Below, in pieces: positions 32,252 through 46,134 of a DNA stretch of 64,000 bases; positions within the stretch are counted from its first letter, which is position 1; every line of letters begins with the position of its first letter. The notes beneath the pieces were generated by a model that worked only from the letters and a program-made list of their open reading frames with translations, did not search any database and was not told the origin of the DNA. The translations under genes and the position numbers were made by a program. The DNA is taken from NCBI GenBank assembly GCA_013138735.1, contig WTCE01000063.1:1-64000 (forward strand). The letters are read 5' to 3'. This stretch comes from Crocinitomix sp. (GTDB lineage Bacteria; Bacteroidota; Bacteroidia; Flavobacteriales_D; Crocinitomicaceae).

Positions 32252-34234
32252 TTGCGGGTTATAATCGTATGCGCCTTGGGCTTTTGCGGTTATTGGCTTA
32301 TTACAGATAATTACCAAAAAAAGCAAGAATCACTTACTTTTGAGGCTGCCGAATATGCAATAAAGTATACACGGAATTTGCTGAATGAAAAGGGGCGAAT
32401 TAAGCGAACGACGGAAGGTCTATCTGCAGGAACCACTACTTTAAACAATTCCACAGCCATTGTTAATAAAGTCAAAGAAATTACTGGTTTTGGTTGTACC
32501 ATATTTTCTGGTGATGTCCGCATAAGTACCACAGCATCTGTCCTTGGATCGGATGAAACAGCGATTGGCACACGCTCAAACAAAGCAATAGCAAAACAAG
32601 TTTATGGTTTAGGCGAAACGTTTAAAGGGATAACAGAAACAATAGGAAGAGACTGGCTGATTATTTATGAACCGCTACGTGACGAAAATGGTCAATTAGT
32701 AGGCATGATAGCGGTATTTAAAGAATATAAAGATTTCTTATCAGATCTAACTGAGTTTAAATTATTGGTTGGAATTACGATTTTTGTCTTTGTGGTGCTC
32801 GTTTTTATTTTAATATGGCGGACGCAATCTCGGAAAAACAAATTAGAGTTGGCGCATCAAAAATCAGCTATAAAAAACGCCAAATTAAAGGAGCAGAAAC
32901 TGGAGTTGGAAAATCTCATTTTTGTTGTTGAAGAAATAGAACAAACCATTGCAATTATTGATAAAACGGATAAAATTGTTTGGATAAATAAGTCTTTTGA
33001 AAAATCAATGCAGTATTCGAGCCGGGAGGCTGTTGGAAAAAAGGCAAGTGACATTTTAGGTGGACCTGAGACAGATAAACTCGTGCTTAAAAAAATGGAG
33101 GAATCCATTTTTGTTTGGAAAACGCCAATTGATTGTACGGTGATGCAATATCGTAAAGATGGCTCTTGTTATTGGGCTAAGGTATACTTAACTCCTTTTC
33201 TTGATGCGGATGGGGAAATAGACAAATATGTAGCCATTAGTTTAGACATTTCGGAAGAGAAGTTAGCGCGTGAACAATTACAAGAAAGTGAAGCGAATAT
33301 TCGGAAAATTGGTGAAACTATTGATGACGCTGTGTATTTGTATCATGTCGTTTATGATCGCTTTGAGTATATAAGTCCAAAATGTAATGCTGTACTTGGT
33401 GTGAATCAAAACTTTTTCTATTCTGGACAAAGTTATGAGAACTTGTTTGTTTTAGATAAATATAGGTCACTCATAAAAAAATCAAAAGATGCGGTCAGCC
33501 AGGGGAAATCATTTGACATTGAATACGAGATTGATTTTGAGAACTCAACGAGATGGATTAGAGAGCGCTCCCACCCTATTTATAATGACAAGGGAAAGGT
33601 CGTGAAAAACTCAGGTGTATTTTCTGACATAACAGAAAGTAAAAGTTTACAGGCCGAACTAACGCGAAAAACCCGTGACTTTAAATTATTGACGGAAATT
33701 GGAATGGATTTGACACAAGGTTTGTCAATTGATGGTATTATAGAAACTGTGCACGCTAGAATTAGTGAAATAATGGATTCACATAGTTTTGCTATTGGTA
33801 TTCTTGATCAAAAAATGAGTCGTGTGCATTTTCCTAAATTTATTGAAAACAATAAAATTCATGCAGATATTTACCACTCACTTGACGAGCATATTTTAGC
33901 AACAATATGTATTAAAGAAAAGCCTGAAATTGTGATGAATGACGTGAAGAACGAGATGAGGCAATATTCGAAAAAGGAACTGACACACACAGATGGTGAT
34001 GTTCCAATGTCTTTGATTTATTTACGTTTATTATTTAAAGGAGAAATCATTGGCATTATTACCGTTCAAAGTTTGAATAAATATGCTTATAGGAAAGAAC
34101 ATGTAGACTTTTTGCGTACCCTTTCAGTGTTCATTTCCAACGCCTTGGCAAATGCTATTTTATATGAATCGAACCAAGAACACCTGGCTTTAAATAAGAA
34201 AAATAAGCCGTTTGATAGCTCTTCAATAGACTAA
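32252..34234 (+). CDS. Cache-PAS-PAS-GAF sensor lacking an output domain
   Basis: About 660 residues. No ATG fits; TTG 32252 is used here, and CTG 32228 (giving MKTATSYVLRVIIVCALGF) is a good alternative because it completes the first helix. The periplasmic part (about 25-165) resembles a Cache3/2 domain: IGTRSNKAIAKQVYGLGETF, then DWLIIYEPLRDENGQLVGM. The second helix is near 170-190. PAS 1 (about 225-345) and PAS 2 (350-460) follow, with PAC ends, then GAF (480-640). The chain stops at SNALANAILYESNQEH plus 20 residues, exactly where a His kinase, GGDEF or SpoIIE module would begin. No such module is in other frames downstream. PAS 2 resembles PAS 2 of the SpoIIE protein. Confidence 0.8.
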   Translation: MRVIIVCALGFCGYWLITDNYQKKQESLTFEAAEYAIKYTRNLLNEKGRIKRTTEGLSAGTTTLNNSTAIVNKVKEITGFGCTIFSGDVRISTTASVLGSDETAIGTRSNKAIAKQVYGLGETFKGITETIGRDWLIIYEPLRDENGQLVGMIAVFKEYKDFLSDLTEFKLLVGITIFVFVVLVFILIWRTQSRKNKLELAHQKSAIKNAKLKEQKLELENLIFVVEEIEQTIAIIDKTDKIVWINKSFEKSMQYSSREAVGKKASDILGGPETDKLVLKKMEESIFVWKTPIDCTVMQYRKDGSCYWAKVYLTPFLDADGEIDKYVAISLDISEEKLAREQLQESEANIRKIGETIDDAVYLYHVVYDRFEYISPKCNAVLGVNQNFFYSGQSYENLFVLDKYRSLIKKSKDAVSQGKSFDIEYEIDFENSTRWIRERSHPIYNDKGKVVKNSGVFSDITESKSLQAELTRKTRDFKLLTEIGMDLTQGLSIDGIIETVHARISEIMDSHSFAIGILDQKMSRVHFPKFIENNKIHADIYHSLDEHILATICIKEKPEIVMNDVKNEMRQYSKKELTHTDGDVPMSLIYLRLLFKGEIIGIITVQSLNKYAYRKEHVDFLRTLSVFISNALANAILYESNQEHLALNKKNKPFDSSSID

Positions 34235-35072: not shown

Positions 35073-35723
35073 ATGTCTGATAGTAAAACGAAGATAAAAA
35101 TTGGCGTAGTTGATGATCATAACTTGTTTCGACTAGGATTAATTCAATTGATTCAATTTTTGGGAGAAGAGTATTGTGTTACTATAGCAGCGTGCAATGG
35201 GGAAGAATTATTGGAAAAACTGCAAGCCGAAGAATTGCCTGATTTGATTCTATTAGATATTGAAATGCCAATCATGAATGGATACGAAACGGCTGAAATA
35301 CTTAAAAGGGACTATCCCAGCATAAAAGTGATAACAATTACCATGAACGAAGAAGAAACTTCTCTCATTCAAATGCTTAAGCTTGGTGTTCGTGGATTTT
35401 TAAATAAAGACATTGAACCCAATGAGTTAAAACGTGCAATGGACGCAGTTATAATTAAGGGCTACCATTATACTGACCGTTTAACCGGGCGTTTGATTTC
35501 AATACTTCAGAATGACGTTGAAGCGCCGAAACTTTCAGAAAATGAACAAATTTTTATAGAGTTGGCTTGTTCTGAAGATCCCTATAAAGTTATTGCCGAT
35601 AAAATGTGTCTTAGCATTAAGACAATTGACGGTTATCGGGCCAATTTATTTGAAAAATTAAATGTAAAGTCTCGAGTTGGTTTAGTCATGTATGCGATTA
35701 AGCATAAAATGGTTAAGTTTTAA
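35073..35723 (+). CDS. NarL/FixJ-type response regulator
   Basis: 216 residues from ATG 35073. The receiver domain occupies 8-125: acidic pair Asp14/Asp15, phospho-acceptor Asp62 in LILLDIEMPIMNG, Thr in VITITMNEEE and Lys in RGFLNKDIEP. The LuxR-type HTH lies at 150-212 (LSENEQIFIELACSE, IADKMCLSIKTIDGYRANLF, then KLNVKSRVGLVMYA). It is a DNA-binding regulator waiting for a sensor kinase. No His kinase is encoded in this window. The nearest sensors are the Cache-PAS-GAF protein upstream, without kinase, and the AAA/TPR protein downstream on the other strand. Confidence 0.9.
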   Translation: MSDSKTKIKIGVVDDHNLFRLGLIQLIQFLGEEYCVTIAACNGEELLEKLQAEELPDLILLDIEMPIMNGYETAEILKRDYPSIKVITITMNEEETSLIQMLKLGVRGFLNKDIEPNELKRAMDAVIIKGYHYTDRLTGRLISILQNDVEAPKLSENEQIFIELACSEDPYKVIADKMCLSIKTIDGYRANLFEKLNVKSRVGLVMYAIKHKMVKF

Positions 35724-35773: not shown

Positions 35774-38740
35774 TTAGTTCAAATCCTGAACTTCTTTCTC
35801 TAGCTGCATAACCTTATGAGTTGCGCCCCATACGGTGTAGCATGACAAGGCTTTTTCAAAGAATTGGATGGCTTGCTTTTTCTCTCCCTCTTTTGAATAA
35901 AATTTGGCCAAACGCTCACTAAAAACGGCTTCATTGTGGATAAACCCATATTTATTCGCTGCGTTAATAGCCTCTTTATAGTGGATTTCTGCGGCACCAT
36001 TATTCAATTTAAGTTCAGCAATTAAAGCTTGTACTAATGCTAAGACTTGAGAATAATTTTCAGGATTAATTTTAGCCAATTTAACCAATCGTTTTTTAAC
36101 GACATTCAGGCCTTTTATTCCCCTTTTAGTTTTTTTATTGTAATGAGCCAATTCAGCTTTTGCAATAGAATAATAGATATCTCGAACAACTTCCGAAGAG
36201 CTGAGAGCATTATAACCTTCCTGGTCAATCTCATCCACAACTGATTGCATATCCTCGACCTTATTAAAGATAACCAATGTCATTAGTCGGTATAAATTCC
36301 AAGTGTATTGAATATGTGTAAAGCTGACGCGCTTCATTCGTTTTTCAACATTCAAAATTTTCTTCTCGCTTGCCTCAAATCCACTTTTTAGGATTTCGAT
36401 TGCGCAGTCAACGGCTTTATGTGAGCTCAAATAGTCGTAATTAGCCGTTCGTTTTAAGAATTTAAAAAAGGATTGTGCTTTATTTCTGACATCATCAATC
36501 GGAACTCCAACAGCCATCATGTTTTCAATTAAAATGATACTTGAATAAGCTGCAATGCTATAATCACCAGCGCCTTTACAAAGATCAAAAGCATCATCCA
36601 GTGCTTGGACATTTATTTTGGAATGCTGGATTAAATGACTGTAAGTTCCATGAACTCCAAATAGACCTCTACCATGAAATATTTGATCATCATATTTCTC
36701 GGTTAATTTGCCGCCTAACTCAATATACTCCCAACCCTTTTCAATTTGCCCAAGGCCCATTCCTAATATGGCGCCATAACCTGAAATGGCAAAATATCCA
36801 ATTGGTGTATTGCCATTTTTTAGAACAATTTCAAAGCCCTTTAAAACTAAAAAGGCCAACACTTCAGGTTTTTTGCCCCAAGCTGCGGCAATCATTTCCA
36901 TTAAAGTGAGTAAGATTTGTTCCGCTTCTTTGTTCGTAATATCTGGACGATCGAGTAAAGATTGAGGGGCTACCCCTCTAATCATCCACTTTATTTTGAT
37001 TAACTGCTTTAGCACCTTTCCTTTGCCAATTTTTTTAGGAAAATTCACGCCCAGTAAACTCAAGGCAGTAAGCCCACTTTCCCATGCAACATCTAAATCG
37101 CTAACGCCATTATACATGACTAAGAAGTTATGATGGACTTTGGCTCGCTGTAGATTGGTACTTGAATATTTTAATGCGGATTCATAAAACATTACACTAC
37201 TTACAAAATCACTTTTTAAATAGGCTGCCTCTCCAGATTCAAGATAAACTTCAAAAACAATATCATTTGACCAAACTTGGTCATTTTCTTCAACGGAGCG
37301 AATTACAAGGTTAAAATATTGCAAGGCCTGATTAAAGGAGCCCGCGAGTTTTGCTTTTTTCCCGGCTTGCAAATTCATTGAAACCAAATTCAATCGTTCC
37401 TTTGGCGTGTCAAAATAAGTGTTGCAACGATTGAACTGATTGACAATATTATAAATATTGCGATCCTGTGCTGCGTAACCTAAAGAGGATGCATAAGTTT
37501 TGCCAAGTGCAAAATGAACCCATTCCTTTTTGTCATCTGTCAACATTGAATAAGCCGAACTTTGCATTTTATCATGCACAAAACGGTATTCTGCTTGTCC
37601 AACCGTATCGCTAATCTTAGAAAGCGGTTCAATCATTCTTCGTTCCACTGCAGGATTTAACCATTCGACAATATCACTATAAGATTCTTCAGTTACAGCA
37701 GACAATATCGCCACATTGAATCGACTTCCAATAGACGCTCCAATACCTAAGAGCTCTTTTGTTTTCTCTTCAAGAGATTCCATCTTTTTGATGATAAACT
37801 CTAGTGTGCGACTTGATTTGTCAAAATTTCGAATTCGAGAGGCATCATAATCCCATTTCTCAGCTTCGTAAAATAAGACGTTATCTTCTAATAAAAATGG
37901 AAGTGATTCTTTTATAAATAAAGGATTACCGCCAGTAAGTTGCAATATTAATTCGCTAAATTCTAATAAGCGATCTTGCTTCATTTCGATCATGTCAGAA
38001 ACCATTTCTTTAATCACCAGTAAAGAAAGCCCTGTTAATTCAAACGTTTTTAATGAGTTGATCTCGCTGTCTGTTCCGTTTCCAGGATTAACCAACCAAC
38101 TATTATGCATTACTTCGTCATTTCTAAAGGCACCAATCCAAAATAAATTTTTGCCTTTCCCTTCTGACAAATACAACTTGAAAAATTCTAGGGTAGATTG
38201 ATCTGCCCATTGCAAGTCATCTAAAAAGAAAACTACGCGCTGATTCAGACATGAGATCGCATTGATAAAGCTCAAAAGGGCTTCGTTAAAGCGATCTTTA
38301 AATGTGATTGGTAATGCACGTTCAGATTTATTCTCGAGTCCAAATAATAAAGCTAATCGCGGAAACGTGCGTAAAATTATTTTATTATGTGAACCAATCT
38401 CAGTTTTTAAAATCGAAATAACAACGTTTTTTTTTGCATCCTCCTCCGCTAACCAGCGCTCAATTAACTCACCTAAAGCCTGTAAAATTGTTGCATATGG
38501 AGGGTTGTTTCGACTCAAATCTAACTTACCCTGAACAAAATAAGTTTCGGGTGTTTCAATTTGCTTAGCAAAATTTGAAACAAAACTTGACTTCCCAACA
38601 CCTGATACTCCTTTAATTAATGCCAAACCACCATTGTCAGAAACAGAAGTTTCATAAGCCTCAAGCAATTCAATCAATTGGTCGTTTCGACCATAAAGAT
38701 TGTCTTTGAATCTAATTTCACTGGATTTTTCTTGAATCAA
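35774..38740 (-). CDS. AAA_16 ATPase with long TPR-like C-terminus
   Basis: 988 residues. The start is TTG 38740; a stop codon lies nine bases upstream and the domain starts at residue 10, so no ATG is possible. Walker A is GVSGVGKSS (44-52), Walker B is VVFFLDDLQWAD (about 168-179) and sensor-like LFWIGAFRNDE follows. This is the AAA_16 type found at the N-terminus of large signalling STAND-like proteins. After a winged-helix-like region, residues 430-988 are an alpha-solenoid with TPR units (ALQYFNLVIRSVEENDQVW, AIQFFEKALSCYTVWG). In relatives this half is usually fused to PAS/GAF and a kinase or SpoIIE; here it stands alone. It is probably a cytoplasmic signalling ATPase. Its gene follows the terpene-cyclase-like gene by 87 bases. 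Confidence 0.8.
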   Translation of the reverse strand: MIQEKSSEIRFKDNLYGRNDQLIELLEAYETSVSDNGGLALIKGVSGVGKSSFVSNFAKQIETPETYFVQGKLDLSRNNPPYATILQALGELIERWLAEEDAKKNVVISILKTEIGSHNKIILRTFPRLALLFGLENKSERALPITFKDRFNEALLSFINAISCLNQRVVFFLDDLQWADQSTLEFFKLYLSEGKGKNLFWIGAFRNDEVMHNSWLVNPGNGTDSEINSLKTFELTGLSLLVIKEMVSDMIEMKQDRLLEFSELILQLTGGNPLFIKESLPFLLEDNVLFYEAEKWDYDASRIRNFDKSSRTLEFIIKKMESLEEKTKELLGIGASIGSRFNVAILSAVTEESYSDIVEWLNPAVERRMIEPLSKISDTVGQAEYRFVHDKMQSSAYSMLTDDKKEWVHFALGKTYASSLGYAAQDRNIYNIVNQFNRCNTYFDTPKERLNLVSMNLQAGKKAKLAGSFNQALQYFNLVIRSVEENDQVWSNDIVFEVYLESGEAAYLKSDFVSSVMFYESALKYSSTNLQRAKVHHNFLVMYNGVSDLDVAWESGLTALSLLGVNFPKKIGKGKVLKQLIKIKWMIRGVAPQSLLDRPDITNKEAEQILLTLMEMIAAAWGKKPEVLAFLVLKGFEIVLKNGNTPIGYFAISGYGAILGMGLGQIEKGWEYIELGGKLTEKYDDQIFHGRGLFGVHGTYSHLIQHSKINVQALDDAFDLCKGAGDYSIAAYSSIILIENMMAVGVPIDDVRNKAQSFFKFLKRTANYDYLSSHKAVDCAIEILKSGFEASEKKILNVEKRMKRVSFTHIQYTWNLYRLMTLVIFNKVEDMQSVVDEIDQEGYNALSSSEVVRDIYYSIAKAELAHYNKKTKRGIKGLNVVKKRLVKLAKINPENYSQVLALVQALIAELKLNNGAAEIHYKEAINAANKYGFIHNEAVFSERLAKFYSKEGEKKQAIQFFEKALSCYTVWGATHKVMQLEKEVQDLN

Positions 38741-38827: not shown

Positions 38828-39520
38828 TTATGAAGCCGCGTTGGTCTTAATTTCACGCTTCATTTTCCAAAGTAATCCAACATACGCAAAATCAAGTATA
38901 ACCACATAAGTTCCCATGACGGCAATTATTCCAATTTCAGTGTAATAAATTGCGAAAATCGTTAAAATTGTATCACCAATTGCACGAGTAACCCCCGCTA
39001 AAAGGGAGAAATTTTTGGCCTTTCCGTTTGTATAAAGTAAAACAAGATACAATGTTGAAATACCAACAGATAAAAAGAAAGCGGAAGTTGCACCAATAGC
39101 TGTGTCGTATCCTCCTTTTGCAAAATAATAGAAAAAGAATCCGAAAAAGACTAATAAACCTATTGTAATTAGGACGGTGTTTTTTTTGAAAAGTGGAATT
39201 TTAAACTGCTTAGCGCCGTATTTAAAGATTAAATAAAGAATGAATAAATCTAAAACAAACCATGCGCGATAACCCCACAAATAGAAATCGCCCATATTGG
39301 TTTTATAAATAAAGCTCCAAACGAACTCCCAAGCTATATTTCCGGCAGCCACAAAAAGCGGCATTTCAATAAACTTATTTTTGAAACCACTTTTTATAAT
39401 TGCGATATAAGAAACCACCCACATTAATGTACCCACGCCTACAATGCAAAGGTCAAAAATGGAATAATCGCAAAGATTAAAATATTGAATAAGTGTAGGG
39501 TACTCTGTACAATAGTCCAT
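38828..39520 (-). CDS. Seven-helix membrane protein resembling Pyr4/PaxB terpene cyclases
   Basis: 230 residues from ATG 39520; an upstream in-frame start at 39556 would overlap the preceding gene. Seven hydrophobic helices can be placed at about 18-42, 53-72, 84-101, 114-134, 145-164, 178-193 and 198-218. Helix 2 carries GNIAWEFVWSF with Glu65. Helix 3 starts YRAWFVLDLFILY. Helix 7 carries GTYVVILDFAYVGLLW with Asp210. In fungal Pyr4 the two catalytic acids are Glu63 and Asp218, in similar helices and with the NxAWExxY-type context. Length and layout agree. The gene lies 10 bases after the MpaB/Lcp-type oxygenase gene. Cyclase activity is inference; a structural relative without catalysis is possible. 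Confidence 0.65.
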   Translation of the reverse strand: MDYCTEYPTLIQYFNLCDYSIFDLCIVGVGTLMWVVSYIAIIKSGFKNKFIEMPLFVAAGNIAWEFVWSFIYKTNMGDFYLWGYRAWFVLDLFILYLIFKYGAKQFKIPLFKKNTVLITIGLLVFFGFFFYYFAKGGYDTAIGATSAFFLSVGISTLYLVLLYTNGKAKNFSLLAGVTRAIGDTILTIFAIYYTEIGIIAVMGTYVVILDFAYVGLLWKMKREIKTNAAS

Positions 39521-39530
39521 AATTTGAAGC

Positions 39531-40763
39531 TTAAAGTGAGGATTTTTTCTTTTCAATTGCTAATCGGTATCCAGCAACCGCAGGACTTAAAGTTTTGAAA
39601 TGATCCCAAGAGGTTTCAAGTTTCCAATTCTCCTGCAATCCGGGCGGTATATAAAAATGCACTCCTTTATATTCATTAAAATGATTGAGCATGCCTTGTA
39701 GCATTGCTAAAGATACTTTTGAAGCTATTTTGTGATAGATATGACTGTTGTTTTCAAGATTTTCTTCTTCGCGAAAAACAGTCCGCAATAAACGGGGCAT
39801 TACTTTGGATAAAACCCCCTTTTCTTCTTTAATCCCCAACATATCTCCAGTACTTTCACCTACAAAATATCGAATAAGAATAGCTGGCGTATCATTAAAA
39901 ATATTACCTGGTAAAATTTCCTTTATAAAATCTGTTAAAGCATTTGTTAACTCAACTCCAGCTTGCGAACCTTCTTTTTGTTGATTCAAAATGGCATAAC
40001 CAAGCTTTAATCCTTCTGCATAAGTAGGTGGATTTAATGCCTCATCTAATCCAACAATATGTCCAGCAACTCGCCAACAGTGATAATAACCATCAATTTG
40101 TTCGGCTGTTAAAGTAACACCACATTGCGTAAGTCCTTCAATAACCAAAGATGAGAAGGACTGCAAGGTCCCGGCCATGTCTTCTTGATTAATAGGCAAA
40201 CCATTTAATTCAGCATTCCAATTGCCGTGAGCCACGATATAGTGTCGAATAACGGCATGTATTAAACGTACTTTTTGCGCAGTTATAATTCCAGAACCAT
40301 CCACTTCATATCCACCTGGTGTGCAAATATTGACCACAAATTGCGACGTCTCCATTAATCTCCGTTTAAATCGCTCTAAGGCTCCATCTGTTCCTTCACT
40401 CAATCTGCCAGTTTGGTGTAAGACTTCCGCTCCTTTTTTACAAGCGTAAGCTTCTGGTAGCGATTTACACATTAATAAGAGGCATATTTCGGGACCAAAT
40501 TGTGCAAACACATCTTGTCCTACTTTTATTTTATTCTGATCGGCCCAAGTAGGTAATGCTTCTGTGTTTTTAAAATATTCCGCAACTTCAACAGGAAGAT
40601 CGGCTTCATTAAAATCACTGTTTTTAATCATTTTATCAAACAACTCACTTATTGAGCGACCTGAACCGTTGGCCATAATCTTATCGACAACATGATCTGC
40701 CAAAGGATCTGATTTCGATCTAAAGGCTTCTAACTGTTCATTTGTATAATTGGAACTAGACAT
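39531..40763 (-). CDS. MpaB/Lcp-family haem oxygenase (DUF2236)
   Basis: 410 residues from ATG 40763, with no signal peptide or clear transmembrane segment. The core motif lies at about 130-185: ALERFKRRLMETSQFVVN, then PGGYEVDGSG, then TAQKVRLIHAVIRHYI. In the rubber oxygenase Lcp this helix carries the axial haem histidine and the Arg/Lys/Thr active-site residues; the His in RLIHAVIRH is the likely ligand. An earlier GPEICLLLMCKSLPEAYACK (about 90-109) is also typical of the family. Members cleave isoprene chains: Lcp cleaves polyisoprene, fungal MpaB' a farnesyl side chain. The pairing with a terpene-cyclase-like protein suggests an isoprenoid substrate. Preceded by miaE with a separate promoter. 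Confidence 0.8.
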   Translation of the reverse strand: MSSSNYTNEQLEAFRSKSDPLADHVVDKIMANGSGRSISELFDKMIKNSDFNEADLPVEVAEYFKNTEALPTWADQNKIKVGQDVFAQFGPEICLLLMCKSLPEAYACKKGAEVLHQTGRLSEGTDGALERFKRRLMETSQFVVNICTPGGYEVDGSGIITAQKVRLIHAVIRHYIVAHGNWNAELNGLPINQEDMAGTLQSFSSLVIEGLTQCGVTLTAEQIDGYYHCWRVAGHIVGLDEALNPPTYAEGLKLGYAILNQQKEGSQAGVELTNALTDFIKEILPGNIFNDTPAILIRYFVGESTGDMLGIKEEKGVLSKVMPRLLRTVFREEENLENNSHIYHKIASKVSLAMLQGMLNHFNEYKGVHFYIPPGLQENWKLETSWDHFKTLSPAVAGYRLAIEKKKSSL

Positions 40764-40903: not shown

Positions 40904-41485
40904 TTAGCCATGTATGGTTTCCCTTTTACCATACTTAGTAATTATTGACGCTTCAAATTCCAACCATTCGTTCCAGCGTTCATCCACATCAACTTTTTCA
41001 GAATATTGTCGTGCAAATTTTAAAAACAAGGTATAATGACCTGCTTCACTCACCATTAACTCATGATAAAACTGAGCCAATTCTGGATCAGGTATGTTTT
41101 CAGATAATACTCTAAAACGTTCACAACTTCTTGCTTCAATCATGGCTGAGAACAAGAGGCGATCAATAAAAGAGGTATTTCTATCCATTCCACGGCGCAT
41201 GAATTTATACAACTCCCCTACGTATGGATCTTTGCGTTCAGGTCCTAGAGCGTTTCCCCGTTTTTTAATACGTTCATGCACCAATTCAAAGTGTTCCAAC
41301 TCTTCGCGAACAATAAGAATGAGCGCATCTACTAACTCAGTTCTTTCCGGATTTTGCGTAATAATACTGATCGCGTTTGTAGCGGCTTTTTGCTCACACC
41401 AAGCATGATCGGTCAATATTTCATCAATATTTCCTTCAACAATTGTGACCCAACGTGGATCGGTTGGTAATTTTAGTCCTAGCAT
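40904..41485 (-). CDS. miaE: tRNA-(ms2io6A) hydroxylase MiaE
   Basis: 193 residues from ATG 41485 (MLGLKLPTDPRWV); an upstream in-frame start lacks family sequence. MiaE is a non-haem di-iron monooxygenase that hydroxylates ms2i6A37 in tRNAs reading UNN codons. Ferritin-like iron ligands are seen in EQKAA (helix 1), REELEHFELVHERI (helix 2, E and EH), EARSCERF and MVSEAGHYTLFL. The N-terminal W and LTDHAWCEQKAA pattern matches bacterial MiaE. Length is normal. Cytoplasmic. The conserved TAATTTTG -7 box lies upstream. Confidence 0.9.
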   Translation of the reverse strand: MLGLKLPTDPRWVTIVEGNIDEILTDHAWCEQKAATNAISIITQNPERTELVDALILIVREELEHFELVHERIKKRGNALGPERKDPYVGELYKFMRRGMDRNTSFIDRLLFSAMIEARSCERFRVLSENIPDPELAQFYHELMVSEAGHYTLFLKFARQYSEKVDVDERWNEWLEFEASIITKYGKRETIHG

Positions 41486-41511
41486 AAACCTATATTTACT
41501 TTGTTTGCAGA

Positions 41512-41519
41512 CAAAATTA
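41512..41519 (-). promoter_or_regulatory. -7 box (TAATTTTG) for miaE
   Basis: Exact TAnnTTTG on the minus strand, 27 bases before ATG 41485. Confidence 0.45.
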
Positions 41520-41604
41520 ATCAAATTTGTTTTTCAAGTTCAGCCTGTGAATAAGTAATTTGCCTTAGAATTAACTGAAGTGATTTCAGCTTTACCTTTG
41601 TTGG

Positions 41605-45855: not shown

Positions 45856-46134
45856 ATGAAAAAATCAAGAAGAAAATTCACAGCTACTTTCAAAACGAAA
45901 GTGGTTTTGGAAGCGTTGAAAGAACGGCTAACCCTACAAGAGTTGGCTTCGAAGTTCGAACTACAACCTAATCAGATAACGCTTTGGAAGAAAGAGTTTA
46001 TGAATAATGCAAGTGCAGCATTTGAGACTAAAGCAAAAACAGATGATTCTGAAAAAGAGAAAGACCAGCTCTACGGCAAAATCGGAAGATTAGAGGTAGA
46101 GAATGATTTTTTAAGAAAAGTCTTGGGCAAATGA
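45856..46134 (+). CDS. IS3-family transposase OrfA (HTH protein)
   Basis: 92 residues from ATG 45856. The N-terminus is a helix-turn-helix of the InsE/IS3-orfA type (SRRKFTATFKTKVVLEALK, LTLQELASKFELQPNQITLW), which binds the IS ends. The C-terminus is a leucine-zipper-like coiled coil (KDQLYGKIGRLEVENDFLRK) used for dimerisation. The stop overlaps the OrfB start as ATGA (46131-46134). IS3 elements normally make an OrfAB fusion by -1 frameshifting. An A-rich stretch near 46110 (TTTTTTAAGAAAAG) could serve, but a start for OrfB is also available. Confidence 0.9.
   Translation: MKKSRRKFTATFKTKVVLEALKERLTLQELASKFELQPNQITLWKKEFMNNASAAFETKAKTDDSEKEKDQLYGKIGRLEVENDFLRKVLGK

Follow-up and report, generated by a model that had tools for sequence, protein, structure and literature searches.

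What does a bacterium do with a haem oxygenase of the Lcp/MpaB type and a Pyr4-like membrane protein that are encoded side by side? The question arises from a stretch of Crocinitomix sp. DNA (assembly GCA_013138735.1, contig WTCE01000063.1, positions 1 to 64,000 of the forward strand; hereafter the window) in which the genes for the two proteins, OX and TM, stand consecutively with a third on the minus strand. A sequence-only reading had described the pair as an isoprenoid-tailoring cassette. The pair and its families stand, but that description is incomplete, as the conserved context, in 43 of 47 closely related loci, is signal transduction. The presence of a signalling gene next to the pair in most loci examined suggests that OX and TM produce or alter a lipid that the bacterium reads as a signal. 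The three genes of the window are:

39531..40763, minus strand: OX, predicted Lcp/MpaB-type (DUF2236) haem oxygenase, 410 aa (PF09995 and alignment with Lcp K30)
38828..39520, minus strand: TM, Pyr4-like seven-helix membrane protein, 230 aa (PF25129 and structure model)
35774..38740, minus strand: third gene, AAA_16 ATPase, 988 aa (PF13191, E 1.7e-26)

Ten bases separate the OX stop from the TM ATG; started at an upstream TTG, TM would have 242 aa instead of 230.

The assignment of OX is clear at the family level. It matches the MPAB_Lcp_cat profile (PF09995) at E 3.3e-15 and 57.2 bits, against a Pfam cut-off of 23, contains the motif TAQKVRLIHAVIRHYI, and is the sole PF09995 match in the window's genome at E 0.001. 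Searched by sequence against the Protein Data Bank (PDB), it finds the rubber oxygenase Lcp K30 (5o1m) at E 4.6e-23, the next two matches being DsbM chains at E 0.003. The accessible part of PMC5522427 assigns the residues of K30 as haem ligand His198, distal Arg164, Thr168 and Lys167, and base Glu148, and gives His198 as 100% conserved in 495 Lcps. In our alignment (numbering by hand) His198 corresponds to His169 of OX, the predicted haem ligand (codon 40257-40259 by count), and Arg164 and Thr168 correspond to the predicted distal residues Arg135 and Thr139. Among the ungapped OX rows, Arg135, His169 and Arg173 are found in 43 of 43 and Thr139 in 39 of 43, with Val in the other four. K30 Lys167 aligns with Glu138 of OX, and the Glu148 region aligns poorly, without a clear counterpart. 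Because Lys167 is present in merely 59% of Lcps (PMC5522427, same part), it does not strictly define a rubber-cleaving Lcp. The likeness to Lcp (5o1m, 5o1l) and MpaB therefore lies in the profile and sequence match, the proximal His and the distal Arg and Thr. The differences from a strict Lcp are the replaced Lys167, the lack of a clear counterpart of Glu148 and a signal peptide that is not evident by eye, and both Lcp and MpaB differ from OX in its pairing with a membrane protein and a signalling gene. OX is an Lcp/MpaB-family haem protein with predicted oxygenase activity, in agreement with the sequence-only reading.

The membrane protein is likewise of the family first proposed for it. TM matches PF25129 (Pyr4-TMTC) at E 8.5e-21 and 75.1 bits (Pfam cut-off 27); a sequence search of the PDB matched no chain. 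Its structure model has seven long helices (predicted local distance difference test score 84.1, predicted template modelling score 0.81). The catalytic acids of Pyr4 are Glu63 and Asp218. In TM, Glu65 lies within GNIAWEFVWSF (codon 39326-39328 by count) and Asp210 within VVILDFAYV (codon 38891-38893 by count), and both are invariant in a nine-row TM alignment; the number of helices, the length, the ten-base gap and the positions of the two acids are all as they had been described. The fair count for Glu65 comes from a set of 25 loci found by profile, independently of any motif, in which 21 of 25 members have Glu65, all 25 have Asp91, and all of the 24 without a gap at that position have Asp210. 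The four members with Ala for Glu65 include none of the near type. In the loci from a scan of named genomes the count of 52 of 53 is no evidence, because the search pattern, N[IF][ASG]WEF[VIT][WY], itself requires Glu65. Glu65, Asp91 and Asp210 are common to near TM and to far Pyr4-like proteins. Five loci (L048, L056, L085, L087 and L091) have TM copies in tandem, and in L085 the second of these no longer has Glu65 and Asp91. TM is a member of the Pyr4-like family (PF25129) with putative cyclase activity, Glu65 and Asp210 being its candidate catalytic acids.

How constant is the pairing? PF25129 is present in 20 of 296 genomes of a phylum sample and in 6 of 59 relatives, the window genome being in both sets. 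The profile-found loci comprise nine of the near type (above 300 bits with our own TM profile) and 16 others, and OX adjoins TM in eight of the nine and in none of the 16 (flanks of at most 1.5 kb, shorter at contig ends). Scanning named genomes yielded 58 loci, of which 47 are near-type (TM at least 194 bits) and 11 far (at most 114 bits), with six of the 47 coinciding with profile-found loci; here OX is the neighbour of TM in 43 of the 47 near loci and in none of the 11 far ones. These two near-type counts rule out chance adjacency. An outcome in which homologues were never adjacent and lacked the acids did not occur. For the four near loci without OX (L049, L070, L088 and L093), no OX-profile match was found elsewhere in the genome, some of these being incomplete bins. 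OX is on the same strand as TM in 41 loci, upstream in 40, with 7 to 125 bases between the matched domains, and downstream in L056; in L085 and L087 it lies downstream on the opposite strand. The distances of OX and TM correlate (r 0.62, n=36; 0 of 2000 permutations as high in a Mantel test, species history not removed). The pair is not obligate, since OX matches in the phylum sample are mostly without an adjacent PF25129 gene. An OX always tied to TM is rejected by matches in 28 of the 296 genomes: the three best (at least 429 bits) adjoin TM, and the other 25 genomes have no PF25129 match beside OX (DUF6989, a family that is taken up below, was not looked for there).

The third member is what gives the pair its context. 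A signalling gene adjoins it in 43 of the 47 near loci: a HisKA kinase in 12, a HisKA_2 kinase in six (two on split open reading frames), a class III cyclase in four, a SpoIIE phosphatase in three, an AAA16 or serine/threonine protein kinase (STPK)-AAA16 protein in 17 and a 7TMR-DISM protein in one, some of these assigned by clustering with Pfam-scanned members. The 17 AAA16 or STPK-AAA16 partners lie downstream in 13 loci, upstream in three and convergent in one; that of L048 is cut, with the kinase domain alone visible. Three of the four remaining near loci end at a contig edge, and the neighbour in L055 is a 216-aa gene without a Pfam match. Scanned directly with Pfam, 44 downstream genes (one protein may count under several families) gave HATPase_c 15, AAA_16 13, Pkinase 12, HisKA 12, cyclase 8 and SpoIIE 8, as against response regulator 8, HATPase_c 5, HisKA 5 and AAA_16 2 among 57 control genes farther off in the same loci, where Pkinase, cyclase and SpoIIE, outside the listed families, can each number at most one. 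Because the signalling gene recurs beside OX and TM, an isolated two-gene unit is ruled out. On a tree of 43 TM rows the output type takes six changes, where the minimum possible is five and the shuffled mean 22.7; partner kind therefore passes down with the TM clade and has been swapped only a few times. The partner in the window aligns with residues 296-1285 of the 1529-aa giant of L176 (24.7% identity over 1014 aligned positions, E 1e-75) and represents the AAA16-TPR core of the STPK-AAA16-TPR-GAF giants, minus kinase and GAF; no kinase, GAF or output domain was recognised in it. Its homologues adjoin TM in relatives.

The wider neighbourhood bears on what the enzymes might be for. Among 125 other neighbours of the near loci, HATPase_c (12) and response regulator (11) are the most frequent families, and the 25 commonest include no terpenoid family, hence none with more than two members. 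Neither prenyltransferase nor polyketide genes recur among them, which extends to the relatives what the sequence-only reading had noted in the window. Of 80 genes neighbouring the far loci, two belong to UbiA, two are polyprenyl synthases and several are part of the methylerythritol phosphate pathway; far locus L094 has a UbiA prenyltransferase gene. Hosts of the loci are mainly Bacteroidota, with others in Ignavibacteriota, Acidobacteriota, Gemmatimonadota, Planctomycetota and Thermodesulfobacteriota, as well as one Fibrobacteria bin and one Leptospiraceae bin; the majority are metagenome bins. The kinship of OX to Lcp, and the earlier idea of a diet-derived terpenoid, would fit a role in scavenging environmental terpenoids or rubber-like polymers, with the third gene as the detector of such food. 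However, the hosts are spread over several phyla, no transporter or terpenoid-degradation family is among those 25 commonest, and a signal peptide is not apparent by eye in OX, so that foraging seems very improbable.

Parts of the cassette are exchanged, on the receptor side and on the enzyme side. In relatives, HisKA-kinase and cyclase partners carry a six-helix membrane (6TM) domain whose fold matches that of Rv1625c. The Rv1625c/Cya-type 6TM of class III cyclases (7yzk) is thus found here on histidine kinases as well, and it was not recognised in the window's own third protein. In a family sample around Algoriphagus formosus (148 genomes), TM is present in five genomes, OX-type proteins in 85 and 6TM in 34. 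We examined 19 of the 22 OX matches of at least 325 bits: TM is in the cassette in three (in L186 it is placed after the giant), DUF6989 is beside OX in 13, both are found in one and neither in two. Pfam confirmed DUF6989 in six of six genes scanned; our DUF6989 profile was built from the same 14 genes that it detects and is to that extent circular. Five of the 13 OX-DUF6989 pairs precede kinase-length 6TM proteins, seven adjoin an STPK-AAA16-GAF giant or proteins that align with it (L178 in part only), and no partner was seen in L182. In the OX tree a branch with Shimodaira-Hasegawa-like approximate likelihood ratio support of 99 sets the DUF6989-linked rows apart on one side, and L185, with both genes, stands next to them.

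Two simpler relationships between these membrane proteins were unsupported: hhalign gave 0.4 and 1.1% for DUF6989 as a distant TM homologue, and at most 1% for the third-gene 6TM domain as a copy of TM. The 6TM domain is not exclusive to cassettes either. By our own profiles in 10-kb stretches, the 17 matches of at least 70 bits in the 148 genomes comprise three by TM, five by OX and DUF6989, three by FAD enzymes and six by none of these, one of the six with a weak FAD-type match upstream. In the 296-genome sample 6TM matches occur in 14 genomes; the sole strong one, at 253 bits, belongs to a TM locus, and the others reach at most 83 bits (A5 is circular in so far as its best matches are for the most part loci that it already includes).

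Several loci outside these arrangements were seen along the way. L187, L188 and L189 lack OX and have 6TM proteins next to FAD amine-oxidase/MCRA-like enzymes, possibly a sister type of cassette. Pyr4-like genes of L036 and L037 stand in a row with histidine kinases and kinase-related genes, again without OX. A separate Pyr4-like subfamily (L012, L015, L016, L018 and L002-L009) belongs to one family of small-genome Bacteroidota, with gene order partly conserved, and four of its members have Ala at the equivalent of Glu65.

We propose that the two enzymes supply a lipophilic ligand to the co-encoded receptor, a reading that we place at roughly one chance in two and in which we infer catalysis, substrate and the product's role as ligand. 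It builds on the families, the conserved key residues, the adjacency, the exchange of outputs and the receptor-type fold in two kinds of partner. The substrate would be a common membrane isoprenoid, such as a menaquinone tail, a polyprenyl lipid or a carotenoid, on which OX would act first and TM second. OX would oxidise or cleave the isoprenoid chain with O2, and TM may then protonate and cyclise it by means of Glu65 and Asp210. The lipophilic product would be the ligand of the co-encoded signalling protein. Kinase, cyclase and phosphatase partners would sense it through their 6TM receptor-type domain, and cassettes like that of the window through the AAA16-TPR(-GAF) protein. The overall logic would be that of a synthase-plus-receptor cassette such as CqsA/CqsS, with an isoprenoid in place of an alpha-hydroxyketone.

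The folds leave room for a different reading, in which TM is a seven-helix receptor and OX a haem sensor or ligand-modifying subunit, the two forming an input complex that switches kinase, cyclase or ATPase without a released product. In fold comparison TM is nearest to the KDEL receptor, SWEET and PQ-loop proteins, and the Lcp fold has been likened to globin-coupled sensors (PMC5522427, accessible part). The tight gene order with exchanged outputs, and the retention of TM without OX in four of 47 loci, point the same way. We nevertheless favour the enzymes, because many partners themselves contain sensory or ligand-type domains (6TM, TPR, GAF) and because an unrelated membrane protein takes the place of TM. 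Moreover, far Pyr4-like proteins also have Glu65, Asp91 and Asp210, and a UbiA gene is found in the locus of at least one of them (L094). A sensor complex is in our view unlikely, if the most serious of the alternatives.

Other features flank the cassette in the window, two of which enter into a further alternative:

40904..41524, minus strand: MiaE-like tRNA hydroxylase, directly upstream of OX (PF06175, E 1.9e-46)
35073..35723, strand opposite to the cassette: LuxR-type response regulator, beyond the third gene and beside the next feature
32252..34234, plus strand: Cache-PAS-GAF sensor protein, no histidine-kinase domain recognised
45856..46134, plus strand: short open reading frame, transposase-helper-like (IS3-like by eye), a few kb from the cassette

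It is conceivable that the product of OX and TM is a structural or protective lipid, such as a modified quinone or carotenoid, and that the signalling gene merely regulates their expression or activity. The enzyme families of the pair would suit this, as would the response regulator and Cache/PAS sensor listed above. Yet cyclases, SpoIIE phosphatases and STPK-AAA16 giants are in general unusual local regulators, the commonest third-gene families include no DNA-binding family, and the partner is mostly close behind TM on the same strand. We therefore consider a regulated lipid pathway improbable. The MiaE-like gene, whose product scores 106 bits against an NCBIfam MiaE cut-off of 320, was also weighed as a cassette member and found unsupported: it was seen next to OX solely in the window and a sister Crocinitomix locus.

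The proposed ligand-producing cassette has partial precedents. In the accessible parts of PMC3376566, CqsA/CqsS and LqsA/LqsS offer adjacent enzyme and receptor genes. The cassettes here have enzyme-type and signalling genes side by side in a similar way, and may resemble those pairs further in the lipophilic ligand that we propose and in the six-helix membrane domain that sensors of some relatives carry. The cassettes here differ in having isoprenoid-type enzymes, with no CqsA-type synthase seen, and in exchanging outputs among kinase, cyclase, phosphatase and AAA16 giants, the ligand being putative. The sequence-only reading, which could point to no described bacterial system of this kind, is in part out of date. 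Bacterial Pyr4-like cyclases are known: the accessible part of PMC13307353 describes XiaH, TylF, GroF and ZigF and reduces 1107 bacterial candidates to 264 with a terpenoid-neighbour filter. What TM shares with these four, at the family level rather than by direct alignment, is PF25129, a compact membrane protein and conserved acids; they sit in terpenoid clusters, whereas the near subfamily lies beside signalling genes. The main text of that survey, as far as accessible, says nothing of Lcp, MpaB or signalling partners, and no catalytic residues were found in the accessible part of PMC11109268. On the pair with signalling genes, a literature search that mostly excluded subscription papers found no paper, and nothing was found on DUF6989.

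It is tempting to go one step further and to see in these loci an undescribed class of signalling cassette, though we offer this tentatively and at less than even odds. OX and a Pyr4-like cyclase, or DUF6989 in one clade, would produce an O2-dependent terpenoid ligand from a housekeeping isoprenoid. The receptors for it would be exchangeable (a 6TM protein with kinase, cyclase or phosphatase output, or a STAND-type AAA16-TPR protein), and the ligand would possibly act as an autoinducer. DUF6989 would then be a second, unrelated cyclase-like enzyme.

If the proposal is correct, terpene-cyclase-like membrane enzymes would gain a role in bacterial signalling, and DUF6989, a family of unknown function, would receive a testable one. 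Filtering by terpenoid neighbours, as in the accessible part of PMC13307353, would miss Pyr4-like genes of this kind of cassette. Moreover, the ligands of 6TM receptor-type domains of the Rv1625c kind are called unidentified in the accessible part of PMC9433096, and the cassettes would offer a cognate source for them.
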